Below, in pieces: positions 1 through 27,373 of a DNA stretch of 32,871 nucleotides (within the stretch, counting starts at the first letter, position 1; the number at the start of each line of letters is the position of its first letter). Origin of the DNA: Armatimonadota bacterium (GTDB lineage Bacteria > Armatimonadota > Zipacnadia > Zipacnadales > VGFC01). A model generated the notes under the pieces. The model had not been told where the DNA came from. It saw nothing but the letters and a program-made list of their open reading frames with translations, and did no database searches. A program made the translations under genes and the position numbers. The stretch lies in the NCBI GenBank assembly GCA_016869045.1, contig VGFC01000033.1, forward strand, positions 1 through 32,871, written 5' to 3'.

Positions 1-1191
1 CCGGAACCGCGACGCGGTGTCGTCCGTCCCGATGAAGGTCCCCTGCCCCACGCCCTCCCGGATCAGACCCAGCGGGTCGGCGTCGGCGGAGAGGTCGAGA
101 CCGTCCATGATCCGCTGCACGTAGGCGAGTATCTCGCGGTCGATGACGGCCTGTTGCGGGCTGAAGACCTCGTCCACCGAGAGCTGGCCGACCGCGCCGA
201 AGTGCCGAACGCCGAGCAGCGCCTGCCACAGGACGGAGGCGGTGCGCTCGCAGGCGGCGTGCTCGTCCGGTATCTTCGCGGTCGTGCGGAACACGCCGCT
301 GCGGACCAGTTGGCCGGCCAGGTGCGCGGTCACCTGCAGGACCGCCGCGCGGTACAGGCACCACTCCGAGGAGCCGAAGACGATCCCCGAGTAGCGGAAG
401 TCGAACGGTTCGACCCGCAGGCTGATTCCGCCGCCGAAGCCGAGCGCGACGCTGATGAGGTCGAAGGCGAGCGCCTCGGCCGTGGACTGCACGAGGGCAG
501 CGAGCGGATCGAGGGGGCATGTCGCGCCCGCAATGGGGATGGCGCCGGTGAGGCTCACCGAGAGGTCTGGGTCACCCCGGAAGGCGAGCGCCGTCCGCAC
601 GCCCTTGCAGTTCAGCCGCAGCGGGCTGATGGCGACCTGCTCCACCAGGCGGTACCGCCGCCCGGCTGCGAGGTTCATGTCCACCAGGAAGCGGACTTCC
701 TCGGGGTCGGTCACCGGGAGCGAGCCGCCGAGCCACCGAGAGTGCAGCAGGCCAATGCGCTCGGCGGCCAGCGTCACCAGCGCCGGCGGCACATCGCCCG
801 GCTGCAGCGGAACCACGCTCGACGTGCCGCGCGCATCCCAGAGGCGCGCCATCTGCGCCGCCTCATCGCTCGTCGCCGGGCGGACGATGAGCGTCTCCGG
901 GTCGCAGTAGTTCAGCCCCGCCCAACAGGCGTCCATGGTGAGACGCCGATCATCTTCGCCGGGCGGAGCGGACGAACGGCGCGCCGCAAGATGCGAGCGA
1001 ACCGCGTCCTCCGCGAAGCGCAGACGGCCATTGACAGGCGTGCAGCCCGGCCAGGCGGCGATCTGGGCCGCGACCTCTGCGTCGGAGCACTCAACGCCGA
1101 TCTCGGCGAGGACCGTGAGGGCATGATCGACAATGCGCCCAAGGTCAGGTTCGGCAAGCGGCGGATCGAGACGAGGGCGCCAGACGGACAT
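1..1191 (-). CDS. MttB-superfamily (trimethylamine methyltransferase-like) protein, non-pyrrolysine, 3' end outside window
   Basis: The reading frame is open from ATG at 1191 to the window edge (397 residues); about the last 75 residues are missing. It was recognised by alignment with the second MttB-like protein at 9114-10538. The two share an N-terminal helix pattern (VLAEIGVE here, LETVGVRV there), a VFGSSEWCLYRAA / VFGSPESCLFEMA block, an AHLAG / AYLAG block, and a C-terminal block around HFGAVGQLSVDEVFSPQQ. MttB-family proteins are TIM-barrel methyltransferases that move a methyl group from a methylated amine to a corrinoid protein. True MttB has an in-frame amber codon for pyrrolysine; none occurs here, so this is a non-Pyl homologue like the glycine betaine enzymes, substrate unknown. 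The start is supported by a Shine-Dalgarno (TGAGG) overlapping the stop of the upstream gene, which ends 12 nt away. It is therefore the distal gene of a marR-cytochrome-methyltransferase unit. No signal peptide is seen, so it is likely cytoplasmic. Confidence 0.85.
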   Translation of the reverse strand, partial: MSVWRPRLDPPLAEPDLGRIVDHALTVLAEIGVECSDAEVAAQIAAWPGCTPVNGRLRFAEDAVRSHLAARRSSAPPGEDDRRLTMDACWAGLNYCDPETLIVRPATSDEAAQMARLWDARGTSSVVPLQPGDVPPALVTLAAERIGLLHSRWLGGSLPVTDPEEVRFLVDMNLAAGRRYRLVEQVAISPLRLNCKGVRTALAFRGDPDLSVSLTGAIPIAGATCPLDPLAALVQSTAEALAFDLISVALGFGGGISLRVEPFDFRYSGIVFGSSEWCLYRAAVLQVTAHLAGQLVRSGVFRTTAKIPDEHAACERTASVLWQALLGVRHFGAVGQLSVDEVFSPQQAVIDREILAYVQRIMDGLDLSADADPLGLIREGVGQGTFIGTDDTASRFR

Positions 1192-1203: not shown

Positions 1204-4200
1204 TCACTGCAACTTCGGGCCCGCGATGACCTCGCCGCGAAGCTGGCGGGCCTGGTCGTCGGGATCGAAGGTGCCGTAGAACAGCGCGTTGGCATCCATC
1301 CAGGTCACGAGGCGCGCGAACTCCTCCTCGCTCAGCGTCACGCCGTGGTGGTCGGCGAGCAGCAGCTTCGTGAGGGCGCTGCCGCGGGCGCCGAACCGGT
1401 TCGGCGTGCTGAGCGGGTCGATGAGGCCCTGGTCCGAGTACGGCACACGCGGCGCAAGGGCGTTGTAGGAGGCCGAGTAGGGGCCATCAGGCGCGCCGGT
1501 GAGCTTCACGCCGCCGCCGGGATCGGTGTTGCCGTGACAGCTCACACACCGCGCATCCAGGATCGGCTGCACGAGGCGCGGGTAGCTGAAGGGGAGTGAA
1601 CCCTCGGGCGCGGGCTCGATGACCGAGGGCGCACGGCTGAGCGCGGCAATCGCCCGCCGAGGTGGCGCCTCGGTTCGCGGCTCGTGGCAACCGACGCAGG
1701 TGATTGTCTCCCCCGGCTGCAGGTAGGTCTCGCTGCGCATCACCTGGACCGCCATGCCTCGCTCGTCGAGCACCTGGAAGCTCAGGGGCACACCGGCCGG
1801 CGCGTGGAAGTAGGCGGAACCGTCCGGCTCGACGGGCACCGTACCCAGGACCTGCTTGCCCGGGGCGCCGCGCGGCAGGCCGACGGGCGGGCGGTCGATT
1901 CCCGGAGTGGACTTCGGTAGGACCTGGAGGATGCGCAGCCGCTTGATCGTCTCACCTGCGAGGGAGGGTGCGCTGTCGTAGAGGTTCTGCAACACCACCA
2001 AGCCCTCGCTCTCGAGGCGGCCGGGGTCGAGCAGCGACGGCGGCTGAGGGGGCACGGGACGCGGGCGCAGCGGCACAGGCCACGCGCTGGAGAGGTTCAG
2101 GTCGCGGTAGAGCAGCTCCTTGTTCCCGAACGCATCGACCAGATAGAGGCCGAACATGTTCGGCCGGTTGCCCTGCGGCTCGCCCACCAGGCGCTCGAAG
2201 CTGTACGCGGCGAGGAAGTACCTCTCTGAGAGGGGGTAGGCGCTGCGGTAGCAGTGGCCTGGCCAGCGCTGCTGCTCGATGGGTTCGTAGGGCTCAATCC
2301 CGGGCGCGCGCAGCCGCCAGTAGGGCGCGAGGTCGTTCTCGCTCTCGGGGAAGGGCGCGTCGGGCGTGAGGCGCGTGAGGGGCGGCAGGCCATCGACGCC
2401 CGCGGCCACATCGACCAGGACGATGGAGCCCGCCGTCATCGCGTGATGCGCGGCGGCCGTCGCCATGACGCGGGTCGAGCCCGGCACAGGGCGCGCCTCC
2501 CAGATGCCCACCGGGTTGAACGTGTTGTTGCCGTAGAAGATCGCGGGCTGTGAGCCGTCGGGGAACGTAGTCCAGAGCTGCTGGTAGAGCACCGCGTAGC
2601 GATCGACGTAGTCCCAGCGCGTGTAGATGATCCGCCCGTCGTTCAGGATCGCCGGGTCCCATTCCTGGGTCTCGTGGAAGGAGAGCGGGCGCGGGTTCGA
2701 GCCGTCCGCTTCCGCGACGGCGAGCGTGTAGTTCTCGCAGCCCGGGCTCCCGCAGCGGTGCCAGCCGCCGCGCCTTGTTGAGATGAACAGGATCCGCCCA
2801 TCGGCTATGTACTTGGGCGCGAAGTCGTTGTACGGCCCGTCGGTGAGCCGGCGCAACCCGGAGCCGTCGGCGTCCATCTCGTAGAGGTGGTAGTGCCGCC
2901 CGTGGTGGCCCTGGATCGTGTCCTCGGGCGTGCTGTCGGCCTCGCAGAAGGCGAAGAGCACGCGCTGGCCGTCGCACGAGACCTCCGGCTGCATGAAGCT
3001 GCCTTGCGGAAGCAGCCCAGCCGTCAGGTCGCGCGCCGCCATCGAGGCGCCCGGGTGTTCGAGGACGCAGATGCCCCCTCCCGGCCGCGCATACCGCCCA
3101 TAGTACTGCGTGAGCTGGTGGCTGAAGCACGGCGGGACCTGCTTCGCGAAGACCAGCGGGCCGGCATCTGCAAGGGGGTTGGCCAAGGCGATCTCACGCT
3201 TGTGCCAGTGCACGCGACGCCAGAGGTACTCGAGGGACGGCGTCGGGGCTGAAGCCGCTCCTACCGCATGGAACTCGGCCTTGAGGGCGGACCAGGCGGC
3301 GGATTGGAGGCCGAGGTCGCGCAGCAGAGCGTCGCCGCGGTCGAGGGTGCGTTGGATTGCCTCAGCGTAAGTGCTGGGCGCGCGCGGTGTGTCGATGCCG
3401 TCCTGCAGCCGCCAGTCCCACTCGATGAGAGCGAGCTCCATCAGGGGACGCAAGGGAGGCGAGAGCGGCGGCGCACCGCGGCCGATGTCCGGTGTGGTGA
3501 TGCGCAGGGGGACGGTGAGGTCGCGGTCGGCGGTGCGCAGATGGAGGTCTGCGACGTGGATGAGGACGTTGCGGCCGGCGCGGGCAATGAGACGCAGGGA
3601 CAGGTCGGCCGTGGAGTCGCCGCTAATCCGCAGCTCGGCCGGGCTGTTGTCCAGAGCGACGGGCGGGGCCTCGGTGTCGCTAAGCGCCAGGGAGGCGGTC
3701 ACCGGTTCTCCGGCACCACCGCTCACGTGAGCGGTGGCTGAGGCCTCGCAGGCCCCGAGCAGGCCCTGCACAGGTACCGCGATCTCGGCGCTCTCGCCCC
3801 GCGCGAGGACGATCCAGACGCCCGGAGGTTGCTCAGTGAAGGCGACCTGCGGGCCCTCGGCAGCGGCGAGGACGCGGAAGCCACACACATCGGAGGAGGG
3901 AGGCGGCGCAGGCTGCCCGTTGAGGGTCACTTGCGCTTCACCGAAGCCCGGTCGCCCTCCGGCGAGTATCTCCACCTCGGCGAGGCCGCAGGTCTGGAAG
4001 GAGTTGTACGAAGTCAGTACGAGGATCCGCAGCTTGCGGGCCTTGACCGGCTCCAGCTTCAGTTCAAGGCGGGCGAGGCTCTCATCCGGCAACTGCCCCT
4101 CCGCGACGCGACGCCACTCCGCCCCGTCCGCCGAGACCTCCACCGCGAAGTCCCGCGTGTGGTACATGTTCCCGGTCCAGGAGGCCTGGACGACGTTGAC

Positions 4201-4458
4201 CTGACGCACCTCCTCGATGGAGGCAAACTCGAAGGTGAGCGCGCAGGGCAGCTGGGTCTGATCGCGGGAGTACCAGCACCCCTCTCCCTGCTGGAGACTA
4301 CCGTCCGCCGCCTTCGTGCCGGCGTACTGCTCCGAGTACTGCGTGTCCGCGACGACGGAGGTTCCGTAGGGAGGGCCGGCGATGTTGGTGAGCGACTGAG
4401 CGGCGCCGACATGGGCGAGCAGGACGGACAGAAGGGCGATCACGGCGCTTCGCGGCAT
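1204..4458 (-). CDS. Secreted F5/8C + beta-propeller + di-heme protein, hydrazine synthase alpha-subunit-like
   Basis: This 1084-residue protein begins with a signal peptide (MPRSAVIALLSVLLAHVGAAQ). Residues about 25-165 look like an F5/8 type C (discoidin, CBM32-like) domain. A mixed region follows, then from about residue 435 a TolB/PD40-like propeller with repeats such as LYEMDADGSGLRRLTDGP and WDPAILNDGRIIYTRWD. The C-terminal part has two CxxCH heme c motifs, CVGCH at 921-925 and CVSCH at 971-975, the second after the LVQPILDARC context typical of planctomycete cytochromes. This propeller plus two C-terminal hemes matches the HZS_alpha family layout, whose founding member is the anammox hydrazine synthase alpha subunit. 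Nothing else here suggests anammox, so a role in hydrazine chemistry is not implied; the substrate is unknown. It would act outside the cytoplasmic membrane. The start has GGGAG 9 nt upstream, inside a hairpin. The methyltransferase gene follows by 12 nt. A REP-like palindrome lies within the frame at 3242-3265. Confidence 0.8.
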   Translation of the reverse strand: MPRSAVIALLSVLLAHVGAAQSLTNIAGPPYGTSVVADTQYSEQYAGTKAADGSLQQGEGCWYSRDQTQLPCALTFEFASIEEVRQVNVVQASWTGNMYHTRDFAVEVSADGAEWRRVAEGQLPDESLARLELKLEPVKARKLRILVLTSYNSFQTCGLAEVEILAGGRPGFGEAQVTLNGQPAPPPSSDVCGFRVLAAAEGPQVAFTEQPPGVWIVLARGESAEIAVPVQGLLGACEASATAHVSGGAGEPVTASLALSDTEAPPVALDNSPAELRISGDSTADLSLRLIARAGRNVLIHVADLHLRTADRDLTVPLRITTPDIGRGAPPLSPPLRPLMELALIEWDWRLQDGIDTPRAPSTYAEAIQRTLDRGDALLRDLGLQSAAWSALKAEFHAVGAASAPTPSLEYLWRRVHWHKREIALANPLADAGPLVFAKQVPPCFSHQLTQYYGRYARPGGGICVLEHPGASMAARDLTAGLLPQGSFMQPEVSCDGQRVLFAFCEADSTPEDTIQGHHGRHYHLYEMDADGSGLRRLTDGPYNDFAPKYIADGRILFISTRRGGWHRCGSPGCENYTLAVAEADGSNPRPLSFHETQEWDPAILNDGRIIYTRWDYVDRYAVLYQQLWTTFPDGSQPAIFYGNNTFNPVGIWEARPVPGSTRVMATAAAHHAMTAGSIVLVDVAAGVDGLPPLTRLTPDAPFPESENDLAPYWRLRAPGIEPYEPIEQQRWPGHCYRSAYPLSERYFLAAYSFERLVGEPQGNRPNMFGLYLVDAFGNKELLYRDLNLSSAWPVPLRPRPVPPQPPSLLDPGRLESEGLVVLQNLYDSAPSLAGETIKRLRILQVLPKSTPGIDRPPVGLPRGAPGKQVLGTVPVEPDGSAYFHAPAGVPLSFQVLDERGMAVQVMRSETYLQPGETITCVGCHEPRTEAPPRRAIAALSRAPSVIEPAPEGSLPFSYPRLVQPILDARCVSCHGNTDPGGGVKLTGAPDGPYSASYNALAPRVPYSDQGLIDPLSTPNRFGARGSALTKLLLADHHGVTLSEEEFARLVTWMDANALFYGTFDPDDQARQLRGEVIAGPKLQ
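3242..3265 (-). repeat. REP-like palindromic unit inside the di-heme protein gene
   Basis: On the coding strand the unit reads GGTAGGAGCGGCTTCAGCCC and then CGAC. It forms a short hairpin around GGCT-TC-AGCC, with one mismatch before the outer pairs. It closely resembles the GTAGGAGCGGCTTCAGCC type of interspersed repeat known from many GC-rich bacterial genomes. Here it is read in frame as V-G-A-A-S-A-P-T, in a stretch that looks like a linker before the propeller. The resemblance is from memory; copy number elsewhere in the genome was not checked. Confidence 0.45.
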
Positions 4459-4525: not shown

Positions 4526-5023
4526 CTACTCCTCGTCCGACGGCTCGGCGATCAGTTGGGCGAGTTCGTCGATGGCCTCCATGAAGGCCTTCTGCTCGGC
4601 CTTCGTGCGCCCCTTGAGCAGCGCCCCGACCGCCTGGTACAGGGGGTGTGGGGCCTGCGCCACGGCCTCGCGGCCGGCGTCCGTGGCCGTCACGAACACG
4701 ACGCGACGGTCCTGGCGGTCGCGACGGCGCTTCATCAGGCCCTTGCTCTCGAGGCGGTCGAAGATGCCCACGACGGTACTCGGGGAGAGGTAGACCTTCT
4801 CGCTGATGTCGGTGGCGGTGGTCGGACCGTAGGCCACAACCGCCCGCAGGCAGACGAGCTGCGGGCCGGTAACGCCATGCATCTTTGCCAGGCGGCGCGA
4901 GTCCACTTCTACGCCCTGCGCGATCCTGCGGAGCGCGTAGAACAGGCGCTGACTGAGGTCGGGATCGACCTGGGTGCGCGAACTCCGCAAGGTGACCTCT
5001 TCCCGTCGGCGTGATGGGCCCAT
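4526..5023 (-). CDS. MarR-family winged-helix transcriptional regulator
   Basis: This 165-residue protein has the MarR layout: an N-terminal dimer helix (DLSQRLFYALRRIAQGVEVDS cut short here as DLSQRLFYALRRIAQ), the helix-turn-helix TATDISEKVYLSPSTVVGIF, and the wing with the family signature DRQDRR followed by VVFVTATDAGRE. C-terminal helices complete the dimer interface. MarR proteins bind palindromic operators as dimers and usually release DNA on binding a small ligand. I chose ATG 5023 because AGGGAG lies upstream and the added residues of a longer frame (to 5092) are arginine-rich and unlike the family. It is the first gene of the leftward unit, 67 nt before the di-heme gene, and diverges from the metallopeptidase-lacZ-mttB unit. 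It is the natural candidate regulator of both arms and of itself. Confidence 0.9.
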   Translation of the reverse strand: MGPSRRREEVTLRSSRTQVDPDLSQRLFYALRRIAQGVEVDSRRLAKMHGVTGPQLVCLRAVVAYGPTTATDISEKVYLSPSTVVGIFDRLESKGLMKRRRDRQDRRVVFVTATDAGREAVAQAPHPLYQAVGALLKGRTKAEQKAFMEAIDELAQLIAEPSDEE

Positions 5024-5134
5024 GCGAGTAGTAGCTCCCTTACGCTGCGGCGACAACACCAATGGTCGGCGGCACCCAAAACGTCCGGGCACCCGGGGGA
5101 CCCGGCCGCAGATCGTCCGCGCCGCAACGAGTCT

Positions 5135-6021: not shown

Positions 6022-9105
<3,084 letters not shown>

Positions 9106-16440: not shown

Positions 16441-19296
16441 CTATGGGGTCGGCTTGAGCCAGATGACGCGGCCCTGGTGTCGTGCGAGGGGCACGGTGAT
16501 CGCGCCCCCTGCGGTCCTCAGCGCCTCGTCGTGCAAGACGTCTGTCGCCGAGGCGATCTGCTGAAGGCCCAGGCGCTTGAGGTCCGCACTCACGCGGGCG
16601 TCGATTGCGTCACCCGTGTTCATTACCGCCAGGATGGCCCCATCCTTCCCCGCATACGCCGAGACAAGCACCTGCGGCTCCGACTGCGCCGCCGGCTGGC
16701 GCCAGTAGGGCTCGAATCTCGCCTCGGTGATGCCGAACGCGTCGAGCGCCTCGTAGAGCTTCGTCCACGTCGCGCCATCGGACCAGATGGGCCAGGGGTT
16801 CACGTCATGCAGCAGCAGGTACGGCGCGAGGTTGAGCGTGCCGGGCTGCTCGTTAGGCGGGCGGAACTCCGGGAGGAAGAACTCGACCGGGCCGAAGTTG
16901 CGGCCGAGGAACTCCGCGCGGAAGGCGTCCGGCGGCAGCACGTCGAGGTAGTCAGCCACGAGCTTGCCCGGACCGAACTGCTCGCCATCGAGGATCGTGT
17001 CGGTGAACGAGAGCATCGGGATGTCCACCTCGGACGACATGTGGACCATGAGCAAAGGGTCGGGCCGCGCGTGCCGGAATAGCGAATAGACGCGCCGGAT
17101 GATCTCCCGATATGCGCGGATCGGGCGCGTGTGCTGTACCTTGCCCTCGGCGTCCGCCCACGCGCACGGCCCGGCCTTGCAGTCGTACGGGCACCAGCAG
17201 TCGATGTAGATGCCGTCGATCTCGTACTTGCGGATCGCCTCGTCGATGCGGTAGAGAATGAAGTCCTGCCAGTCGCGGTTCGCGGGGCAGGTGCCCATCG
17301 CGGGGAAGCCCATCGCCGCCACGTCGCTCGGCAGGACGCCGCGCGGCGGATCGCCCGCCCAGCGCGAGCCATAGTACTGCCACTCCGGCGCGCCGCCCGA
17401 GCAGTAGTTCAGGTTCACGTACGGGACGACCAGGCAGCCCTTCTCGTGCGAGGCCTTCACGCGTTCGGCGAACTTCGCCGCGTCGATCGGCTCCGGGTAG
17501 CCGTACCACCTCATGTTGTCATTCGGCCAGATGATCTCGAAGGTCGGTCGCGGCGCTGGGACCATCCGCCAGCGCCGGGCGTCTTCGGGGCACGGACGAG
17601 CGGGGGTCGCCATGAACCCGAAGCCATACTCGACCTTCCCCTTCGGCGCGGTCGGCTGGGCGATCAGCCGCAAGGTCACGTTCACCTGGTCGCCCTCGCG
17701 CGTGACCTCGATGGCCGGCTTGTCTTTCGAGGTCACCCAGTTCCGCGGCGTCTCCGCATACCACGCAAGCCCACGGTCCTCGTTGCCCAGCCAGAAGAAG
17801 TGCGTCCAGTCCGACGACCAACCCTCGGGCTTGAGCGCCCCAGCCGGATTGCCGCTCCACTTCATCTGGTCGGCGTGCATCAGCGTGGCCTGTGACGCGG
17901 GCATGGACCAGAACAGGCGGAGCTCATCGACCTTCATTCCCTCCCCGGCATCCAGTGTCAGGTCGGTCCATGTGAAGCCGTCGAAGTCGACCTGGTGCCG
18001 CGTCGTGAGGCCCATGCCCCCTGCCTCGCTCGTCCCGCTCAGCAGCGCCCGCGTGTCCCTTGCCTCCTCGACCCGCGCCCCCCGGTCGGGGAACGCGACC
18101 GTCTGGCCGTTCACCACGGCCTCCAGCGTCACGGGCCGAATCAGCTCTACGTCCAGTGAGGAGGCGCTTCGCAGGAACGTGCCGAACCCGTACTGACGGC
18201 CCCAGCACTCGACAGTCGCCTTGCCCCGGTCGGTCTTCAGCGGCGTCCACGGCGCCAGGACCTCGTCCTCCATCCCCAGCCTGTTGCCGCTCCACACCGG
18301 AAGGCCGGGCTTGTGGAAGGGGGCGGACTGCTTGGCGATCACCGCTCCGGCAGCATCCAGCAGGCTCGTCCGGACCTCGTAGTCACCCTCGGGCAGGTCG
18401 GCGATTGGGAGCTTCGCCCGGCCCATGTCCTTCGGGAAGGCGGCGATCTCGGCTTGCGCGACAGCGGCGCCGCCGGCCTTCGGAAGTAACTCGATTCGCC
18501 CCGTGCGCCCAGCCCCAAGCTCGCCCACCAGCCCCGCCGCGTCGCACGCCACGTTCAGCTCCCCCACCTCGGGATCGGCCTTCACGTCGAGCACGATCTG
18601 CGGGTGGTACTCGAAGGCCTCGCCCCGCGCAGACCTGGCGATGCTCTCGGAGTCCAGGGGCACCGAGTACAGCTTCACCTCGTCGATGAGCGTGTGCTTC
18701 GGTCCCTCCCGCGCCACGTGCCACGGATGATCGCCGAGGCGGAACGGGTCGGCGAGAGTGTCGGGCATCGGCGGGTCATCGACCACCCCCGCCCGCTCGC
18801 CATCCACGTAGACCTCCAACCGCTTCGCGCGCCAGGTGCCTGCGAGGTGATGCCAGTCGCCCGGCGTCCACTTGATCCGCGGCCCGGCGGCAGCGCGGTA
18901 GGTCTGCGTGTCGGAGCCCATCAGCGTGAGGATTCCGCCCTGGTAGTAGCGGTAGAAGACGAGCCAGCCGGGGCTCAACGCCTCCAGGAAGACGTGGAAC
19001 TCGTCCTCGTCGCCCGTCCAGTCAAGCGGGCAGACCCACATCTCGACGGTCCCCGAGTTGGCGCGCAGCACGCCCGCGGTCGCATACCAGAGCAGCGCGC
19101 CGCCGTCGCCACACACCAGCGCCTGCCCCACCTTCCCTGGGCGGAACTCGACCGTGCCCTCGGTCTTCACGGGCTTCCCGTCGCCGCGGGAGACGGCGTC
19201 CAGTGTGCCATCGAAGGAGGCATGGAAGGTGAGCGGTGGATCGGGCGGGGCGGCGACTACCGGAGCGCAGACGAGGGATGCGAGCAGAGCGAGCAT
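16441..19296 (-). CDS. Secreted LamG-like + GH123/DUF6067-like glycoside hydrolase-type protein
   Basis: This 951-residue protein has a signal peptide (MLALLASLVCAPVVAA). Residues about 20-230 form a LamG-like jelly roll (LTFHASFDGTLDA, GTVEMWVCPLDWTGDEDEFH, WHHLAGTWRAKRLEVYVDGE), a fold common in secreted carbohydrate-binding proteins. The middle resembles the DUF6067 / GH123 N-terminal region (WTHFFWLGNEDRGLAWYAET). The C-terminal half looks like a TIM barrel, with YEIDGIYIDCWCPYDCK (D699) at a strand end. A glycan-degrading role outside the cytoplasm is inferred; the substrate is unknown and catalytic residues are not certain. GGAGG lies 9 nt before ATG 19296. A longer frame to 19566 would only add residues antisense-like and rich in Arg and Ser. 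It follows the clan-A glycosidase gene by 43 nt on the same strand, so the two are probably co-transcribed. Confidence 0.75.
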   Translation of the reverse strand: MLALLASLVCAPVVAAPPDPPLTFHASFDGTLDAVSRGDGKPVKTEGTVEFRPGKVGQALVCGDGGALLWYATAGVLRANSGTVEMWVCPLDWTGDEDEFHVFLEALSPGWLVFYRYYQGGILTLMGSDTQTYRAAAGPRIKWTPGDWHHLAGTWRAKRLEVYVDGERAGVVDDPPMPDTLADPFRLGDHPWHVAREGPKHTLIDEVKLYSVPLDSESIARSARGEAFEYHPQIVLDVKADPEVGELNVACDAAGLVGELGAGRTGRIELLPKAGGAAVAQAEIAAFPKDMGRAKLPIADLPEGDYEVRTSLLDAAGAVIAKQSAPFHKPGLPVWSGNRLGMEDEVLAPWTPLKTDRGKATVECWGRQYGFGTFLRSASSLDVELIRPVTLEAVVNGQTVAFPDRGARVEEARDTRALLSGTSEAGGMGLTTRHQVDFDGFTWTDLTLDAGEGMKVDELRLFWSMPASQATLMHADQMKWSGNPAGALKPEGWSSDWTHFFWLGNEDRGLAWYAETPRNWVTSKDKPAIEVTREGDQVNVTLRLIAQPTAPKGKVEYGFGFMATPARPCPEDARRWRMVPAPRPTFEIIWPNDNMRWYGYPEPIDAAKFAERVKASHEKGCLVVPYVNLNYCSGGAPEWQYYGSRWAGDPPRGVLPSDVAAMGFPAMGTCPANRDWQDFILYRIDEAIRKYEIDGIYIDCWCPYDCKAGPCAWADAEGKVQHTRPIRAYREIIRRVYSLFRHARPDPLLMVHMSSEVDIPMLSFTDTILDGEQFGPGKLVADYLDVLPPDAFRAEFLGRNFGPVEFFLPEFRPPNEQPGTLNLAPYLLLHDVNPWPIWSDGATWTKLYEALDAFGITEARFEPYWRQPAAQSEPQVLVSAYAGKDGAILAVMNTGDAIDARVSADLKRLGLQQIASATDVLHDEALRTAGGAITVPLARHQGRVIWLKPTP

Positions 19297-19339
19297 TGGA
19301 GGTCCCCTCCGGCGACGAAGTGTCAAGACACGGATGACG

Positions 19340-21889
19340 TCAACGGTTGACCAGGACGTACGTTGGGTTCGGTGTGATCGACAGCTTGCCCTTGGCCGAA
19401 CGCTCGCGACCCATGATGTCCCACGCGCGAGTGGCGCCGGGGATCGCGAGGTCGGCGGTCGTGCCGGTGCGCGACCAGGCGACGACCAGCTCCCCGCGCG
19501 GCGTGCTGAAGTGATGGAGCCACAGGTCCTTCGTAGGGCGTTCCAGGCGCTCGAAGGTCGCGCCATCCAGGAGCCAGGTCATCGTGGCGTAGGCTGCTAC
19601 CGCGGGGCGCGGCTGTCCGTCGCCCTCCACGAGGCTATCCCACGCCTTGGCGACAGGCGATCCATCGATGAACGCATTGTACAGGAAGAAGCGCTCGACG
19701 CCCGCGGCGATCTGGGTCACATACATGCGGACGATCAGCCGCGCGACCGCATCGGCCGGCATGGGTGCATAGTTGTCCGGCGCTCTGGGTCGGTAGGTCA
19801 GGCACGAGGCCGGGTTGTAGACGCCGCCCTCCGTATCGAGGATCGGGAGGTCACGGCCCGCCGCGCGCATCTCCTCCCGGAAGCGGGGCGTCGAATCGAG
19901 CGTGGACTCGGCCTGCTCATCCATCGGTAGCGCGAGGTTGTAGGAGTGGTAGTAGTGGAAGCTCAACGCGTCCATGAGCTGCAGGCCGCCGCCCGCGATC
20001 AGCTCCTGCGCGAACATCAGACCATCCGTCCCTCGCGCGAAGTCGCCGGCCGTGCAGGCGCCCACGACCGTCGCCTCCGCGTTGGCGCGCTTGATGACCG
20101 CGTAGCTGTGCCGCAAGGCCTCCAGATGCGCGTCGGCTCGCGTTGGGCCGTCGGGCTTCGCGCGCCACCAGCGCAGGCTCGGCTCGTTCTCGACCTCCCA
20201 CACGCGGATGTCGTCCTTGTAGTGCTCCACCACGGCGGCGACGTAGGCTTCCCACTGGTCCCAGTAGCCCGGCGCGTTCGGGTCGGCCCAGGACGGCGGG
20301 CCCTCGAGCATCCCGAACAGCCGGAAGCCGTCGGCGACGTACGCCTGGATGAGATCGTCATTCCAGACCCACTTGCCCTGCTCGGGCTCGACCGTGGACC
20401 AGAGCGTGGGATTGGGCGGCCAGAGGCGGAGCCAGCGGACGCCGATTGCTCGCCCGAGCGCGCGGTGGGCCGGCGAGACCTGGAAGTGCGCCCCGAAGGG
20501 CGAAGTGTCCGGGTTCCCAGTGCGTTGAGCTGGCGGCAGGCGGCAGAACGTGCACTCGTTCCGGCGCGTCTCGCCCTCGTGCGTCCAGGCGACCTCGCCG
20601 CGATACCACCCGCGCGGCAGGTCGCTGCAGTCCAGCCGCTTCTCATCCCGGCCGGAGCGCGGGCGCCACTCGCCGGCGCGCACCGCCTCGCCCGCGAAGT
20701 CCGTCACCCGCCAGGCGATCAGCGCCGGAGGAACCCCTTGGGGCGTCGTGCTGAGGAGGCGCAGAACCGTCGGCTCGCCGTCGTGATACAACGCCAGCGG
20801 ATGCCGGTCCGCAATGACGGCGGCGCGAGGAAGCGGGACAGGTTCGGTGCTCCCGTCCTGGCGCAGGTCCACGTCATCGAGCCAGACGGGGCCGGGGCCG
20901 TCCACCGTGAAGATGACGTAGGCGTGGTCGATCCCCGGCACGAAGCTCGCGATGCCCGAGCCCTCCAGCGTCGTCCACTCCGGGCCGACGTCCGCGTCGG
21001 TCCACGTGTACGGCCACTCCGCATGTGCAGCGTGCATGAGCACGGTGCGCAGGCGAACGTGCGTCTCCTGCGCGGCCCTCATCCGGCAGGAGACGTGCAA
21101 CGGCCGCCCGGGCACGATGGTCACCACGTCGCTGACGATTCCGATGCTCCCGGCATCGCCGCCTGTCACTTTCAGGCACGGGTTGCCGTTGTCCGTCTCG
21201 ATGGCGAACTGCGCGGCCTTCAGGTTCTGCCAGCCCGTGTCGCCGTGCCAGTTAGCGCGGTCGAGATCGAAGCTGCCGTTGCGCAGGAGGTTGCCGCGCT
21301 TCGCCGGAGGCGTGAGGGCCGCCATGTCGGCCTCCGAGAGAGCCTCGAGCGAGACGTCATCGACCCAGACCGAGCCAAGCTCGGAGAGGCGGATCATGAA
21401 GAGGGTCTGCGGATCATCCACCGAGGACACGCCGACGTACTCGACGGACTGCCACGTGCTGCCGACGATCCACGTCTGGCCGATGTAGGGGCTCCAGGGC
21501 CTGACAGACTGGCGGAGCTGGATGGTGACGGACATGAGGCCGGTGGCCCTCAACGACGCGCGGACGCGGTACACCGTGCCCTTCCTCAGCGCGACGGGCT
21601 GCGCGGTGATGAGCTGCAGCGCGCCCATGTCAGCCCAGCCCGTGCGCTCGGGCGTGATGTAGCCCATCCGGTTGATCGTCAGCCTCTGGCAAGCGGCGCC
21701 GCTGCGCGGATTGTCCGCCTCCCGCGCGAAGGCGAGGTCTTTCGTGCCCCAGTTCGTGTACGAGTTGTCCTGCCAGCCCTCGGCGATGCCATTGACAGCG
21801 AACGCGCCCTCGAAGTCCGTTCGGACGAGCGTCTCGGCGGCGAAGCAGGAGGGGGCGAGAGTCATCAATGCGAGGAAGATGCTGAGCAT
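19340..21889 (-). CDS. Secreted carbohydrate-binding + clan-A (GH39-like) glycoside hydrolase-type protein
   Basis: This 849-residue protein has a signal peptide (MLSIFLALMTLAPSCFAA). Two carbohydrate-binding jelly rolls of CBM4/9 type follow (about residues 20-190, ending GSVWVDDVSLEAL, and 195-345, ending GPVWLDDVDLRQ). A TIM barrel occupies about 450-840. It carries the clan-A signs: acid/base E569 in VWEVENEPSLRWW and nucleophile candidate E687 in LPILDTEGGVYN, 118 residues apart. GH39 and related families cleave beta-xylosides and other glycosides; the substrate here is not predictable. GGAGAAGG precedes ATG 21889; the frame is open upstream but overlaps the divergent gene. It is the first gene of a leftward glycosidase pair and diverges from the propeller gene at 21989 across 99 nt, in which I found no convincing promoter hexamers. 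Confidence 0.8.
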   Translation of the reverse strand: MLSIFLALMTLAPSCFAAETLVRTDFEGAFAVNGIAEGWQDNSYTNWGTKDLAFAREADNPRSGAACQRLTINRMGYITPERTGWADMGALQLITAQPVALRKGTVYRVRASLRATGLMSVTIQLRQSVRPWSPYIGQTWIVGSTWQSVEYVGVSSVDDPQTLFMIRLSELGSVWVDDVSLEALSEADMAALTPPAKRGNLLRNGSFDLDRANWHGDTGWQNLKAAQFAIETDNGNPCLKVTGGDAGSIGIVSDVVTIVPGRPLHVSCRMRAAQETHVRLRTVLMHAAHAEWPYTWTDADVGPEWTTLEGSGIASFVPGIDHAYVIFTVDGPGPVWLDDVDLRQDGSTEPVPLPRAAVIADRHPLALYHDGEPTVLRLLSTTPQGVPPALIAWRVTDFAGEAVRAGEWRPRSGRDEKRLDCSDLPRGWYRGEVAWTHEGETRRNECTFCRLPPAQRTGNPDTSPFGAHFQVSPAHRALGRAIGVRWLRLWPPNPTLWSTVEPEQGKWVWNDDLIQAYVADGFRLFGMLEGPPSWADPNAPGYWDQWEAYVAAVVEHYKDDIRVWEVENEPSLRWWRAKPDGPTRADAHLEALRHSYAVIKRANAEATVVGACTAGDFARGTDGLMFAQELIAGGGLQLMDALSFHYYHSYNLALPMDEQAESTLDSTPRFREEMRAAGRDLPILDTEGGVYNPASCLTYRPRAPDNYAPMPADAVARLIVRMYVTQIAAGVERFFLYNAFIDGSPVAKAWDSLVEGDGQPRPAVAAYATMTWLLDGATFERLERPTKDLWLHHFSTPRGELVVAWSRTGTTADLAIPGATRAWDIMGRERSAKGKLSITPNPTYVLVNR

Positions 21890-21988
21890 GGGCCTTCTCC
21901 GGGAATGGCTGCCACGCGCGGCAGGAAGTTCGGCGGGCTGGGCGGAAGCGCCTGCGGATGCAAAGCGAGAGAGACGAGGACATCGCCG

Positions 21989-23119
21989 ATGCCCCTGAAG
22001 CCCCTCGACCCGCGGAAGTGGGAGGCCGTCGTCTTCAGCGAGCACCCACTGCACGATACGATCTGGAGCATCACCCTCGGGCACGACGGGCATGTGTACG
22101 TCGGCCTCTGCCTGGAGGGGCGCGGAGGCGGCGTCGCGCAGCTCTACGTCTACGATACGCGGGAGCGCTGTCTGCGCCATCTGGCGGACATGGGAGAGGT
22201 CACGGGCGAGCCGCCGGATAGCGGCCATGCGACCCAGGGGAAGATCCACTTCGCGCTCTGCCATGCCCGCGACGGCAAGCTCTACGGCGCCACCCACTGC
22301 ACCACGCCCCCGCTCGGGCACCGCATCTGGAGCCCCCTGGCCATGTGGGGCGATCCCGTGACGAGCTTCCCGGGTGCGCACTTGTTCCGCTACGACACGC
22401 TCACCGGCGAGGTCGTGGACTTCGGCGTGATCACCCCGAACGACGGCATCCCTTACCTCATGCTCGACGAGACGCGCGGACGGCTCTACGGGGTCACCTA
22501 CCCGAAGGCGCGCTTCTTCAGCATGAGCCTGCAAGGCCGCGACTTCCGGGACTACGGCCGCATCTCGTCGTGGTATCCCATCTCGATGGTCTTCGACCAG
22601 GCTGGGAACCTGTACACCTCCGACGCGAACTCACAGCTCATCAAGTACGATGTCACCGAGGACCGGCTCGTGTTCCTCAACACGAAGCCCTACTCGCAGC
22701 CCTGGAACACCGACAGCCGGTACTCGTGGATCACCGACGTGTGCCTCGCGCCGGACGGGTGGGTGTACGGGCTCACGTACTCCAACGACCACCTCCTCCG
22801 CTTCGACCCGCGCGAGGCAAGCCCCAAGATCGAGGACCTCGGGCCGGGCCTGCCCAACACGCCGTCCGGCACGCTGCGTTGTCTGGTGCCCGATCGGAAG
22901 GGGAGCCTGTACTACCTCGCACAGCCTGCGTCCGGGCAGCGCGTCGGGACAGTCCTGGTACGCTACGACGTCGCGACTCGACGAAGGACAGCGGTTGCGC
23001 TGATGGAGCTGGATGGCGAGGCCTACTTCACCTGGCGCGGCGTCTGCGCCCCGGACAACACGCTCTATCTCGCGACCATTGGGCGCGTGCCGGCGTGTCT
23101 GCTCATCGGCCGCCCGTAA
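21989..23119 (+). CDS. Beta-propeller protein of unknown function
   Basis: This 376-residue protein has no signal peptide. It contains repeated blades with the pattern D-x-x-G-x-[LV]-Y-G/V, for example LGHDGHVYVGLC, HARDGKLYGATH, DETRGRLYGVTY, DQAGNLYTSD, LAPDGWVYGLTY and PDRKGSLYYLA. This fits a six- or seven-bladed propeller of the SMP-30/NHL/kelch-like kind. No catalytic residues are evident. GAGGA lies 8 nt before ATG 21989. A second propeller gene follows 20 nt after its stop on the same strand, so the two form a pair, divergent from the glycosidase genes. A role in sensing or processing glycan-derived ligands is possible from context but unproven. Confidence 0.7.
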   Translation: MPLKPLDPRKWEAVVFSEHPLHDTIWSITLGHDGHVYVGLCLEGRGGGVAQLYVYDTRERCLRHLADMGEVTGEPPDSGHATQGKIHFALCHARDGKLYGATHCTTPPLGHRIWSPLAMWGDPVTSFPGAHLFRYDTLTGEVVDFGVITPNDGIPYLMLDETRGRLYGVTYPKARFFSMSLQGRDFRDYGRISSWYPISMVFDQAGNLYTSDANSQLIKYDVTEDRLVFLNTKPYSQPWNTDSRYSWITDVCLAPDGWVYGLTYSNDHLLRFDPREASPKIEDLGPGLPNTPSGTLRCLVPDRKGSLYYLAQPASGQRVGTVLVRYDVATRRRTAVALMELDGEAYFTWRGVCAPDNTLYLATIGRVPACLLIGRP

Positions 23120-23139: not shown

Positions 23140-24318
23140 ATGCCGCCGAAGGGAGCTTCGCGCCGCAAGCCGCCCGTACCGGTGCTGACCGCCCCGGAAG
23201 CCGTCGAGCACGCGAGCCTCTACCGCACGAAGGCCTTCCCCTTCGTGAGCGAGGGGACGGTGTACTGCTTCGGGCTGCGGGAGTACCTCGTGGAACCCTC
23301 GATCCCGCGCGGCGAGTCGGCGATCGGGGCTCTGCTAGCGCTCGCTTCAGGCACGGTCTTTGGGCTAACCACCGGCGAGAGGTCGCACCTCTTCTACTTC
23401 CACCCCGGGTTCGGCGTGGCGCACGTCGGCCCGGTGAGCGATGGCCCGGCGGGGGGCGCGGCTCTTCTCCACCTCGGCGGGAACCAGATCCTCGGTGGCT
23501 GGTGGGGACCAAAGGGCGGCGGGCTGTTCCGCCACAATGCGACGGTCGAGATCGGGCAGGGCATGGAGCAGTTTCGTGGCGCGAAGGGCGCGATCGAGCC
23601 CCTCAAGCTGCCCGAGGTCGGTTACGGCCTCGCCGCATTCGCCGGTCCGACGGACGACGCAGCCGCCTATGGGCTCACGCTGCCGGACGGCGCCCTCATC
23701 CGCATCGACGCCGGCTCACATCGGACGAAGGTGGTCGCGCGCGTGGCGAACCCCACGCCCGTGCTGGTGCTCTTGCCGTCAGGAGTGCTGCTGGGCGCCT
23801 TCGCAGAGGGTCGCCTATGGCAGTATGCGCCCGACGAAGGGCGGTTGACCGCTCTGGACGCCCACGCCCCCTGCCAAAAGGGCAAGCGCTACGTGGCGGG
23901 GGTGCAGGGCCTCATCCTCGCCGACGACGGCCTCGTCTACGGCGGGACCTCAACGGACGGGTTCCTGTTCAGCTTCGACCCCGCCACTCATGCCGTGGTG
24001 AACCTGGGCAAGCCGAACCGGCAGTCGAACATCCGGGCGCTGGCGCAGGGCCACGACGGGCGCCTCTACGGACTCGTGGAGGAGCCGCAGGGCCTGGCGC
24101 ACCTGTTCCGCTTCGAGCCCACGACACGGGGCTTCTGCGACCTGGGGGTGCTCGGGGCGGCCTTCCCCGAGTGCTGGACCGCTCACTCGCTCGGCGCGAT
24201 CACCGTCGGGCCGAACGGCGAGCTCTTCATCGGCGAGACCGACAGCCTCTCTCACCTCTTCGTCTACTACCCACCCATTCCGCGCCGGAAAGAGCCTACA
24301 CCACTCCCTCGCGAATGA
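23140..24318 (+). CDS. Second beta-propeller protein of unknown function
   Basis: This 392-residue protein has a basic N-terminus (MPPKGASRRKPPVP) and no clear signal peptide. Blades are recognisable as LASGTVFGLTTG, TLPDGALIRIDAG, LADDGLVYGGTSTDG, GHDGRLYGLVEEPQ and VGPNGELFIGETD. It shares the D-G-x-[LV]-[YF]-G blade core with the preceding gene and is probably a distant paralogue. AGGAG lies 6 nt before ATG 23140, 20 nt after the stop of the first propeller gene. Its 3' end overlaps the end of kdsD on the opposite strand by 23 nt (24296-24318), leaving no room for a conventional terminator between them. Function is unknown. Confidence 0.7.
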   Translation: MPPKGASRRKPPVPVLTAPEAVEHASLYRTKAFPFVSEGTVYCFGLREYLVEPSIPRGESAIGALLALASGTVFGLTTGERSHLFYFHPGFGVAHVGPVSDGPAGGAALLHLGGNQILGGWWGPKGGGLFRHNATVEIGQGMEQFRGAKGAIEPLKLPEVGYGLAAFAGPTDDAAAYGLTLPDGALIRIDAGSHRTKVVARVANPTPVLVLLPSGVLLGAFAEGRLWQYAPDEGRLTALDAHAPCQKGKRYVAGVQGLILADDGLVYGGTSTDGFLFSFDPATHAVVNLGKPNRQSNIRALAQGHDGRLYGLVEEPQGLAHLFRFEPTTRGFCDLGVLGAAFPECWTAHSLGAITVGPNGELFIGETDSLSHLFVYYPPIPRRKEPTPLPRE

Positions 24319-25288
24319 TGTCCTGGATGTCCACGACTCCGACGGCGACGCCGTCCGCGTCCACGACGGGCAGGTTGTCGAACTCGCGGTCCTGCATGAT
24401 GCGAACGGCTTCGGCGGCGGAGCAGTCGGGCGCGACGGTCGTCGGCCGCAACGTCATCACGCGGCTGATCGGCATCGCCATGACGGCATTCCGATCCGGC
24501 TCACGCTGCATCAGGATGCGGAAGTCGCCGTCCGTGAACAGGCCCTTCAGCTTGCGGGAGGTGTCCACGATACTGACGACGCCGCGCACCGGTGCGCGAG
24601 TCATGGTGAGCACGGCGTCCAGCACCGTGGCGTCCAGGGAGACCACTGGGTTCGAGTCGCCGGAGTGCATGATGTCACAGACGCGCAGCATCACCCGGCG
24701 CCCGAGCGAACCGGCCGGATGGTGTTCGGCGTAGTCGTCGCTGGAGTAGCCGCGCGCTTCCATGGCGGCCATCGCGAGCGCGTCACCCATGGCCAACTGC
24801 GCCGCCGTGCTCGCGGTCGGCGCCAGGCCCAGCGGACAGGCCTCCTCGCGGACCGCGGCGTCGAGGGCGACGTCGGCCTGCTGGCCGATGGTCGAGGTCG
24901 TGTTGCCCACAATCGCGATGATCGGTGTGCGGCGGCGCTTCAGAGCCGGTATCAGCCGCATGACCTCCTCGGTCTCGCCGCTGTTGGATAGCAGCAGCGC
25001 GACGTCGTCCCCCGTGATGATCCCGAGGTCGCCGTGGACGGCCTCCACGGCGTGCATGAAGACCGCCGGCGTGCCCGTGCTCGCGAGCGTGCCGCCGATC
25101 TTCCGCCCGACCGCGCCGGACTTGCCCACACCGGTGACGACCACGTGCCCCTTCAGCTCCACGAGCAGCCGCACGGCGGCGACGAAGTCGTTCCCCAGGC
25201 GATCAGCGAGGCCGGAGATTGCGCAGCTCTCGATGTCGAACGTGCGGCGGGCGCTCTCCAACACGGCGGCTTCGCTCAGGTCCGGCAC
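24296..25288 (-). CDS. kdsD: Arabinose-5-phosphate isomerase (KpsF/GutQ/KdsD family)
   Basis: This 330-residue protein has the usual length and order: an SIS sugar isomerase domain (GHVVVTGVGKSGAVGRKI, STGTPAVFMHAVEAVHGDLG, LLLSNSGETEEV) and two C-terminal CBS domains (around VCDIMHSGDSNPVV and PISRVMTLRPTTVAPD). It converts ribulose 5-phosphate to arabinose 5-phosphate, the first step towards Kdo. The start is GTG 25288 with GGTGAG before it. It overlaps the 3' end of kdsA by 13 nt, so translation is likely coupled. It is the last gene of the minus-strand mre-kds operon. kdsC, the Kdo-8-phosphate phosphatase often found next to it, is absent from the window. Confidence 0.93.
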   Translation of the reverse strand: MPDLSEAAVLESARRTFDIESCAISGLADRLGNDFVAAVRLLVELKGHVVVTGVGKSGAVGRKIGGTLASTGTPAVFMHAVEAVHGDLGIITGDDVALLLSNSGETEEVMRLIPALKRRRTPIIAIVGNTTSTIGQQADVALDAAVREEACPLGLAPTASTAAQLAMGDALAMAAMEARGYSSDDYAEHHPAGSLGRRVMLRVCDIMHSGDSNPVVSLDATVLDAVLTMTRAPVRGVVSIVDTSRKLKGLFTDGDFRILMQREPDRNAVMAMPISRVMTLRPTTVAPDCSAAEAVRIMQDREFDNLPVVDADGVAVGVVDIQDIIREGVV

Positions 25289-26103
25289 GCGGATCTCACC
25301 TCCAGCAGTGTGCGCAGGAGTGGTGCGACCTCATCGAGGGGCAGCATGTTCGGACCATCGCAGAGGGCGGCGTCCGGGTTCGGGTGGACTTCCGCGAAGA
25401 CGGCGTCCACGCCCGCCGCGACGGCTGCTCGCGCCAGCGGAGCGACGAACTGCCTCTCCCCTGCGGACTTCCCTCCCCCGCCGCCCGGCAGTTGCACGCT
25501 GTGGGTCGCATCGAAGACGACCGGGTACCCGAAGCCGCGCATGATGACCAGGCCGCGCATGTCCACCACCAGGTTGTGGTACCCGAACGTGCTGCCGCGC
25601 TCGCAGAGCGTGATCGACTCGTTCCCGGTTGAGCGCACCTTCTCGATGCAGTGCCGCATGTCATCGGGCGCGAGGAACTGCCCCTTCTTGATGTTGACAG
25701 GCAAGCCCGTGTCCCCTACCGCGACGAGCAGGTCGGTCTGCCGCGAGAGGAAGGCGGGGACCTGCAGCATGTCGAGCACTTCGGCGGCGGGCCTCACCTG
25801 CCCCACCTCGTGGATGTCGGAGAGCACGGGCACACCGACGGAGGCCTTGATCGCGGCGAGGGTCTCCAGGCCCTGCTCCAACCCCGGCCCTCGGTAGGAG
25901 GTCACCGACGTCCGGTTCGCCTTGTCAAACGAGGCCTTGAAGACGAACGGGACGCCCAGCACCCCGCAGATCTCGCGAAGTCGGGCGGCCACTTCGCGCG
26001 CGATGGAGGGGGCCTCAAGCACGCACGGCCCGGCGATGAGCGCGAGCCTCTCGCCGCCGATGGGTTGGCCGCCGACCTGAACGACCTTCACTTGCTCGCT
26101 CAC
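25276..26103 (-). CDS. kdsA: 3-deoxy-8-phosphooctulonate (Kdo-8-P) synthase, metal-dependent class
   Basis: This 275-residue protein condenses arabinose 5-phosphate with phosphoenolpyruvate. Family blocks are FVFKASFDKANRTSVTSYRG, PVLSDIHEVGQV, LPVNIKKGQFLAP and VVFDATHSVQLPGG. IAGPCVLEA carries C27 at the position that is a metal-binding cysteine in class II enzymes (Aquifex type) and an asparagine in the E. coli metal-free class. The other expected ligands are present in DATHS (His), EVHPNPDAA (Glu) and LCDGPN (Asp). It is therefore predicted to need a divalent metal. The start GTG at 26103 overlaps the TGA of kdsB as GTGA, a sign of translational coupling. The 3' end overlaps the kdsD start by 13 nt. 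Confidence 0.95.
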   Translation of the reverse strand: MSEQVKVVQVGGQPIGGERLALIAGPCVLEAPSIAREVAARLREICGVLGVPFVFKASFDKANRTSVTSYRGPGLEQGLETLAAIKASVGVPVLSDIHEVGQVRPAAEVLDMLQVPAFLSRQTDLLVAVGDTGLPVNIKKGQFLAPDDMRHCIEKVRSTGNESITLCERGSTFGYHNLVVDMRGLVIMRGFGYPVVFDATHSVQLPGGGGGKSAGERQFVAPLARAAVAAGVDAVFAEVHPNPDAALCDGPNMLPLDEVAPLLRTLLEVRSACRT

Positions 26104-26873
26104 AACTGCGCCTCCACCAGGCGTCTAACGGTCTCAAGGTCCTCCGGCGTATCGACGCCGACCGGCGAGTAGTCTACCTCCACGACGCGGATCGGGCAGC
26201 CGTTCTCCAGCACGCGAAGCTGCTCGAGGCTCTCCGTCGCCTCCAGCACCCCGCGCGGGAGGTCCGCGTACCACAACAGCGTCTCGCGGCGGTAGACGTA
26301 CAGCCCGATGTGTTTGAGCGGCCGACAGCCGGAGACCGGGTGCACGAGGTCGCCCGCGAGCGCCGCCTCCTGCGCGGGATCGTCCAGGCGGAAGTACGGA
26401 ATCTGCCGGCGCGAGAAGTAGAGCGCGTCCCCCCGTGCGTCGCACACCACCTTCACCACGCTCGCCGCGGCCCATTCGTGCGCCGTGGCCCGCGTCGCCA
26501 ACGTGGCCATGCAAACGCTCGCGTCGTCTAGCAGCGGCTGCACGGCCCGGTCGATGATCCGGGGATCGATCAGCGGCTCATCGCCCTGGATGTTGACGGC
26601 GACATCGCAGTCGAGCCTCTGCGCCACCTCGGCCAGGCGGTCGGTGCCGGACTTATGCTCGGGCGAGGTCATCTCGACGCGCGCCCCGAAGCCGGCCGCT
26701 GCTTCAGCAATCCGCTCATCGTCGGTGGCGATGATGACCTCACTGAGGGTCGCCGCCCGCGCCGCGCGTTCGTAGACGTGCCGTAGCATCGGCTTGCCGC
26801 AGATGTCCGCCAGCACCTTCCCGGGCAGGCGGGTCGCTGCGTAGCGAGCAGGGATCATGCCGACAACCATCAT
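26100..26873 (-). CDS. kdsB: 3-deoxy-manno-octulosonate cytidylyltransferase (CMP-Kdo synthetase)
   Basis: This 257-residue protein activates Kdo with CTP before transfer to lipid A. It shows the N-terminal nucleotide loop IPARYAATRLPGKVLADI, EVIIATDDERIAEAA, the NIQGDEPLIDP motif, and YFSRRQIPYFR. ATG 26873 (or 26870) follows AGGAGG by 10 nt, and that site overlaps the TAG stop of mreD. A longer frame to 26999 has no support. Its stop overlaps the kdsA start. The order is kdsB-kdsA-kdsD directly after mreBCD. Confidence 0.95.
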   Translation of the reverse strand: MMVVGMIPARYAATRLPGKVLADICGKPMLRHVYERAARAATLSEVIIATDDERIAEAAAGFGARVEMTSPEHKSGTDRLAEVAQRLDCDVAVNIQGDEPLIDPRIIDRAVQPLLDDASVCMATLATRATAHEWAAASVVKVVCDARGDALYFSRRQIPYFRLDDPAQEAALAGDLVHPVSGCRPLKHIGLYVYRRETLLWYADLPRGVLEATESLEQLRVLENGCPIRVVEVDYSPVGVDTPEDLETVRRLVEAQL

Positions 26874-26887
26874 GCCACAGGGCCCTC

Positions 26888-27373
26888 CTAGGCCTCCGCC
26901 CGCTGCGGCCAGCGGCGAGCCAACGCGCGCGCATAGACATAAGCGACGGGCGAGACGACCGCATTGTACAGCATCAGCCGGGCAACCTCCCCCAGCCACG
27001 GTAGGAAGTGAGAGGGCGGGCTCACAACCAGGTGGATGAGGGAGGCCAGCAGCGTCGCCAGGATCGCCACCACCGGCGCCACAAGGATGTGGTCGGCGAA
27101 GACGCGTCCCCGGACTTGCCCCGCCAGGAAACCGACCGCCATCAGCCCGATCAGCGCCGCCGCGAAGCTGCCCTCACCCGCCGCGCCCAGTAAGAACCCA
27201 CCGAGCAGGCCCGCCGCGTAGCCGGCCAGGCGGCCGCGCGTGATCCCGATACACGCCACGATCACGAGCACCACATCCGGCCCCACGTTCCCGATGCGCA
27301 GCGCCTGGGGCCAGGCCCTCTCGAGGGCGGCTCCCAGGACCAGGGCCGCGATGTGGGCGATCACGAACAGCAA
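26888..27373 (-). CDS. mreD: Rod shape-determining membrane protein MreD
   Basis: This small 161-residue protein is almost entirely hydrophobic, with about five membrane segments (for example VGPDVVLVIVACIGI, LLGGFLLGAAGEGSFAAALI, VAPVVAILATLLASLIHLVV). Sequence alone is weak, but length, topology and its place right after mreC make MreD the clear call. It links the cytoplasmic MreB filament to cell-wall synthesis proteins. The start is ambiguous: TTG 27373 gives the full first helix, with only a GGGGG-type ribosome site. GTG 27364 is the next option. Its stop TAG is embedded in the AGGAGG of kdsB, 14 nt before that gene. Confidence 0.88.
   Translation of the reverse strand: MLFVIAHIAALVLGAALERAWPQALRIGNVGPDVVLVIVACIGITRGRLAGYAAGLLGGFLLGAAGEGSFAAALIGLMAVGFLAGQVRGRVFADHILVAPVVAILATLLASLIHLVVSPPSHFLPWLGEVARLMLYNAVVSPVAYVYARALARRWPQRAEA

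Follow-up and report, generated by a model that had tools for sequence, protein, structure and literature searches.

A predicted secreted di-heme protein of an Armatimonadota bacterium is homologous to hydrazine synthase alpha and belongs to a separate, multi-copy family

The window, meaning the whole 32,871-nucleotide stretch of contig VGFC01000033.1 (Armatimonadota bacterium assembly GCA_016869045.1) that was analyzed, carries near its left end an open reading frame (1204-4458) that we confirmed, with a product of 1084 residues. A sequence-only reading of this DNA had described the ORF, its domain architecture and its CxxCH motifs, all of which stood, although its strand needs correcting to minus (4458→1204). 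The features of the gene and its two immediate neighbors are as follows:

1..1191, minus strand: homolog of MTTB-superfamily methyltransferases, cut by the contig end, a possible operon partner (Pfam/profile search)
1204..4458, minus strand: gene for the di-heme protein of hydrazine synthase (HZS) alpha fold, 1084 residues (ORF, Pfam, structural match)
1264..1596, minus strand: C-terminal cytochrome c domain, residues 955-1065 (aligned with the HZS heme alphaII domain)
1345..1350, minus strand: His1037-His1038, candidate distal ligand of heme II (HZS His772 aligns with H1038)
1534..1548, minus strand: heme II motif CVSCH, residues 971-975 (alignment)
1681..1947, minus strand: HZS_alpha middle domain, residues 838-926 (PF18582, E 1.6e-22)
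1684..1698, minus strand: heme I motif CVGCH, residues 921-925, followed by EPRT, without the axial Tyr (alignment)
2059..3168, minus strand: six-bladed beta-propeller of TolB/HZS-alpha type, residues 431-800 (PD40; structural matches to 5c2v_A and TolB)
2443..2448, minus strand: His671-His672, family-specific signature loop of blade 5 (conservation)
2602..2619, minus strand: RWDYVD, residues 614-619, family-specific signature loop of blade 4 (conservation)
3514..3951, minus strand: beta-sandwich region, residues 170-315 (predicted strands)
3988..4350, minus strand: F5/8 type C (discoidin/CBM32-like) domain, residues 37-157 (Pfam PF00754, E 6e-9)
4399..4458, minus strand: signal-peptide-like N terminus, residues 1-20 (sequence; helix 6-16 and low model confidence)
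4526..5092, minus strand: MarR-family regulator, upstream of the di-heme gene (Pfam)

The MTTB-type homolog lies downstream of the di-heme gene on the same strand, 12 bp away, and the MarR-like gene (5092-4526) lies 67 bp upstream, also on the same strand, so that co-transcription of the di-heme gene with its neighbors, proposed earlier for the methyltransferase, is plausible; the pairing, however, is not conserved, as we found no homolog of either neighbor at any related locus examined, and we rejected a methyltransferase link (corrinoid, TMA) as conserved context. The nearest ortholog (59% identical) has an acetyl xylan esterase directly downstream, and esterases and gluconolactonase-like propellers recur beside orthologs of the sister subclade. 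Other neighbor clusters at related loci include sulfatase, GFO/IDH/MocA, URO-D and ceramidase-like genes, which may simply be abundant in such genomes. Since the neighbors of close orthologs vary from locus to locus, and genomes of this kind are generally rich in sulfatases, esterases and sugar enzymes, we gave gene context little weight. The regulator beside the window copy, together with the modular N termini and propeller fold of the family, would suit a sensor or binding protein whose heme propeller senses NO, H2S or a similar small molecule while its N-terminal domain binds glycan, but a secreted protein with two hemes and no signaling domain fits this poorly and the regulator is not conserved, and we regard a sensor as improbable.

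Elsewhere in the window there were a Family 2 beta-galactosidase of LacZ type (GH2; 6037-9105), a large protein with a LamG domain and a GH123-like region (16441-19566), and two long ORFs (19946-23119 and 23502-24734; 1057 and 410 residues) with no Pfam match at E 0.001. Adjoining DAHP-synthetase-family and cytidylyltransferase genes (25276-26999) resemble Kdo synthesis, and the host therefore probably has an outer membrane. At loci of two related Armatimonadota (L045:5332-13234 and L046:102-6765), a gene with the HZS_alpha domain (hereafter alpha-like) directly follows an apparent phosphate-transport operon, which suggests phosphate-linked control of the gene in these organisms; for L045 the permease, ATPase and PhoU were confirmed.

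The signal peptide, discoidin-type domain and propeller that the sequence-only reading had placed in one chain were all seen, from the N terminus, Pfam and the structural model. The N terminus, MPRSAVIALLSVLLAHVGAAQ, looks by eye like a Sec-type signal. The F5_F8_type_C match scored 36.5 bits against a Pfam gathering score of 28.2, and CBM32 and neuropilin b-domain chains turned up in the sequence and structure searches; the beta-sandwich region (residues 170-315) had no family match in the Pfam search, and the PD40 match (535-566) was weak. A search against HZS_alpha, proposed earlier as a check, was significant (80.3 bits, cut-off 26.6). Both CxxCH motifs are present at 921 and 971 as first read, and C921, C924, H925, C971, C974 and H975 are invariant in a 64-sequence alignment, which argues that the motifs are not there by chance. 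Conserved CxxCH motifs, an export signal and maturation genes in the genome, where CcsA- and ResB-type genes both occur, predict a c-type cytochrome at the gene level. In another genome (G011, contig C5; L135:2320-8309), an alpha-like gene follows ResB and CcsA in a tight same-strand block, 10 bp apart; the surrounding cluster has several alpha-like genes as well as a beta-gamma-like fusion. A search for COX1 in six genomes carrying the alpha-like family gave no match in four of them (these drafts may be incomplete), and dependence of the family on a heme-copper oxidase was thus not supported.

The protein's resemblance to HZS alpha, noticed earlier from its propeller and two C-terminal hemes, proved to be homology by both sequence and fold. 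Its top PDB sequence match was HZS alpha (5c2v), as was that of a six-member profile. An AlphaFold2 model built from the 64-sequence alignment (mean pLDDT 91.5, pTM 0.89) again ranked 5c2v first by Foldseek (E 2e-25), and VIA-align superposed model residues 431-1074 on 5c2v_A with Z 33.6 (3.0 Å over 553 residues), with TolB propellers well below (Z ~25). TolB shares the propeller fold but has neither hemes nor an HZS_alpha domain. Because the sequence and fold matches span all three HZS-alpha domains, the resemblance is true homology across the propeller, middle domain and cytochrome domain. Kuenenia HzsA (PDB 5C2V) likewise has a signal peptide, a six-bladed propeller, an HZS_alpha domain with a CxxCH heme and a C-terminal cytochrome c domain, and positions held in common include YGN, VExDGS, Q895, D898, Q905 and P915. 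Unlike HzsA, the window protein has extra N-terminal modules, the RWDYVD, HH, MR and CHE residues, and no adjoining beta-gamma partner.

Homology of this extent raised the reading that the protein is a true, if divergent, HZS alpha subunit working in nitrogen chemistry. In HZS the iron of heme alphaI is bound by Tyr591, and the His of its CxxCH motif (His587) binds zinc (PMC12607021; PMC12758564) together with Cys303 (PMC12758564). In our alignment the position of Tyr591, four after the heme alphaI CxxCH His, is Thr929 in the window protein; the Tyr occurred in none of 126 relatives and in all 10 HZS sequences. The HZS-type heme pocket is therefore not kept, which answers in the negative the earlier question of whether the unusual axial ligand persists. 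At the zinc site, His925 is present as the equivalent of His587 and Asn645 stands at Cys303, although Cys303 is missing in several HZS too. The CxxCH motifs, 50 residues apart in the window protein and 50-53 in nearly all relatives, are 102 apart in HzsA and HZS generally, so that an HZS segment of ~50 residues between the hemes is missing. For heme alphaII, H1038 aligns with His772, yet the family-conserved His is H1037, one residue off.

Against the NCBIfam equivalog for HZS alpha (NF052339) the window protein scored 59.3 bits, far short of the cut-off of 800; our reference set of true HZS alpha came from 27 Planctomycetota genomes, each scoring >1000 bits. The phylogeny suggested earlier was run, and in a tree with four HZS sequences HZS was monophyletic and the window protein fell far outside it with full support (100/100). 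The absence of nearby beta and gamma subunit genes, remarked on in the sequence-only reading, was borne out: none is among the identified flanking genes, the contig ending ~1200 bp downstream, and the sole beta-gamma-like fusion found in the source genome is a remote homolog on another contig (C50) with no alpha-like gene beside it. Three genomes with 5-18 alpha-like copies (85-88% complete) had no beta-gamma homolog at E 1e-15. At eight loci elsewhere an alpha-like gene does lie within ~45 bp of a fused beta-gamma homolog on the same strand, an arrangement already published for other lineages. One Planctomycetota locus (L086:4469-12247) holds a beta-gamma fusion, the alpha-like gene nearest HZS on the tree and a second, ordinary alpha-like gene, in an order that matches that of anammox genes, without the axial Tyr. 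While the shared fold, these adjacent pairs and the single beta-gamma-like gene in the source genome speak for an HZS identity, the score, the missing Tyr591 and inter-heme segment, the position on the tree, and a genome with 25 alpha-like genes to one non-adjacent beta-gamma-like gene speak against it. We rejected true HZS identity on score, axial Tyr and tree position; even a divergent HZS role in nitrogen chemistry is hardly credible, and real HZS activity is very unlikely.

What the family has instead is a residue set of its own. Twelve positions (F558, S560, R614, W615, Y617, D619, H671, H672, D683, M907, R908 and E926) are 90-98% conserved in the family and replaced in HZS, giving a signature RW[DE]YxD, HH, MR and CxxCHE that was not found in HZS. 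Conservation in the RWDYVD loop was 96% for R614, 95% for W615, 96% for Y617 and 90% for D619, and in the second loop 93% for H671 and 91% for H672, the HH pair being present in 110 of 126 relatives and in 0 of 10 HZS sequences. The strand list of the model places R614-D619 between strands 2 and 3 of blade 4 and H671-H672 between the corresponding strands of blade 5, and a strand 4-1 loop carries Asn645, which aligns with HZS Cys303. Strand 2-3 and strand 4-1 loops of a propeller lie on one face, and by topology RWDYVD and HH would thus share the face that bears the zinc ligand in HZS. Since Cys303 and the heme alphaI His of HZS share a zinc ion, that face should meet heme I, and we infer that the signature residues line the heme I pocket.

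The main rival to an enzyme is a pure electron-transfer or storage cytochrome, in which two low-spin six-coordinate hemes sit on a propeller scaffold tethered to a surface by the F5/8C domain and serve extracellular electron transfer. The two CxxCH motifs, 50 residues apart, and a candidate heme II distal His motif in 112 of 126 relatives would suit it, as would the absence of Tyr591, which leaves the canonical CxxCH His free to bind heme I; heme II could make the protein a carrier only. Cultured strains of Pontiella, which have genes for multiple c-type cytochromes and can reduce AQDS and metals (PMC7356697), also speak for a carrier; one cultured anaerobe of this genus, Pontiella sulfatireligans, has three family members of different subfamilies in one cluster (L113:9728-20287). 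Pure electron carriers, however, rarely require such a conserved residue set, and R614, W615, Y617, D619, H671, H672, R908 and E926 are conserved beyond the heme ligands. On balance we consider a pure electron carrier rather unlikely. The enzyme reading is favored in part because the signature residues are this conserved across several phyla and replaced in HZS.

In the source genome (7.9 Mb, 95% complete) we counted 25 ORFs with the HZS_alpha domain, and in another genome of the same genus 18; genomes from Pirellulales, Phycisphaerales and Thermogutta records have 24, 10 and 10 copies, respectively. Among Armatimonadota, 31 of 251 genomes were positive for the alpha-like family, typically with many copies each. 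Named relatives belong to Armatimonadota, Planctomycetota, Verrucomicrobiota, Kiritimatiellota, Lentisphaerota, Hydrogenedentota and Sumerlaeota, the nearest being Armatimonadota. Because the 25 paralogs scatter over the tree in several old lineages, many beside relatives from other phyla, we rejected a recent local amplification. A Verrucomicrobiota MAG (L078:8801-22274) has a run of four alpha-like genes of different subfamilies. The planctomycete PSD1/PSCyt proteins also form large multi-copy families with cytochrome-like domains in the same phyla, but they are different families, and the Armatimonadota genomes rich in PSD1 mostly differ from those rich in alpha-like genes; co-expansion of PSD1 with the alpha-like family was not seen among Armatimonadota genomes.

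The N-terminal modules of the 25 paralogs include F5/8C (7), LamG (4), NPCBM (1) and a sulfatase-modifying-factor domain (1). Adhesion proteins often contain F5/8C, LamG and propeller domains, whose presence on family members could point to an adhesive or structural function with heme in a minor role, but the heme I motif is invariant and the heme II motif is found in 122 of 126 relatives, making this highly improbable. The polysaccharide or cell-surface anchoring proposed in the sequence-only reading is suggested by the F5/8C, LamG and NPCBM modules of the paralogs and by the acetyl xylan esterase beside the nearest ortholog.

With the key HZS heme ligand missing and membership in a large multi-copy family, the window protein most likely does a redox job other than hydrazine synthesis. 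More specifically, we give about even credence to a secreted c-type di-heme oxidoreductase of HZS-alpha fold, in a family separate from HZS, that is held on carbohydrate and uses heme I as its active site. Heme I (C921/C924/H925) would sit over the propeller face bearing RWDYVD and HH, and its active site would pair an ordinary His ligand with a distal or metal site drawn from the RWDYVD/HH loops or Met907. Heme II (His975 with His1037 or His1038) would pass electrons to a periplasmic acceptor, the F5/8C domain may tether the enzyme to the cell surface or to a carbohydrate that it acts on, and paralogs with other N-terminal modules may serve other targets. As a first guess, the substrate would be a carbohydrate or some molecule that is released from it.

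Distant HZS homologs have already been published. Hagglund et al. 2025 (PMC12758564) described clades I-IV of non-anammox HZS-alpha homologs, with loss of Tyr591 and >600 structural hits, and a broader family was proposed from hzs-like genes in MAGs of Phycisphaerae and KSB1 (PMC10732223). The window protein shares the homology and the Tyr591 loss of these published homologs. Clades I-IV, however, were selected by adjacency to beta-gamma homologs; heme II is missing from clades II and III, and clade I has no His772 (PMC12758564). The window gene, by contrast, is standalone, and its product bears the RWDYVD/HH signature, an F5/8C module and heme II, with a His either at position 772 or one residue away. 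Our beta-gamma-linked alpha-like members (L079, L081, L086, L114, L123 and L134) resemble the published clade I-IV or hzs-like group. In the papers searched, many subscription titles being outside that coverage, neither the standalone modular branch nor its copy numbers and signature were described.

HZS has been regarded as almost without parallel, and how it arose is still an open question (PMC12758564). We tentatively suggest, as a possibility that leans to the doubtful side, that these proteins make up a class of secreted di-heme enzymes not described before, in which heme I and the RW[DE]YxD and HH propeller-face loops form a separate active site. The many paralogs would work on different carbohydrate-linked substrates, frequently where no heme-copper oxidase was detected, and HZS would have come from the same stock through exchange of propeller-face residues and acquisition of the axial Tyr and the inter-heme insert. 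A standalone branch with the same fold and different conserved residues offers a comparison for asking which changes created hydrazine chemistry. HzsA-like matches are an unsafe basis for calling anammox, and the family points to an uncharacterized redox activity present in up to two dozen copies in some Armatimonadota, Planctomycetota and related genomes.
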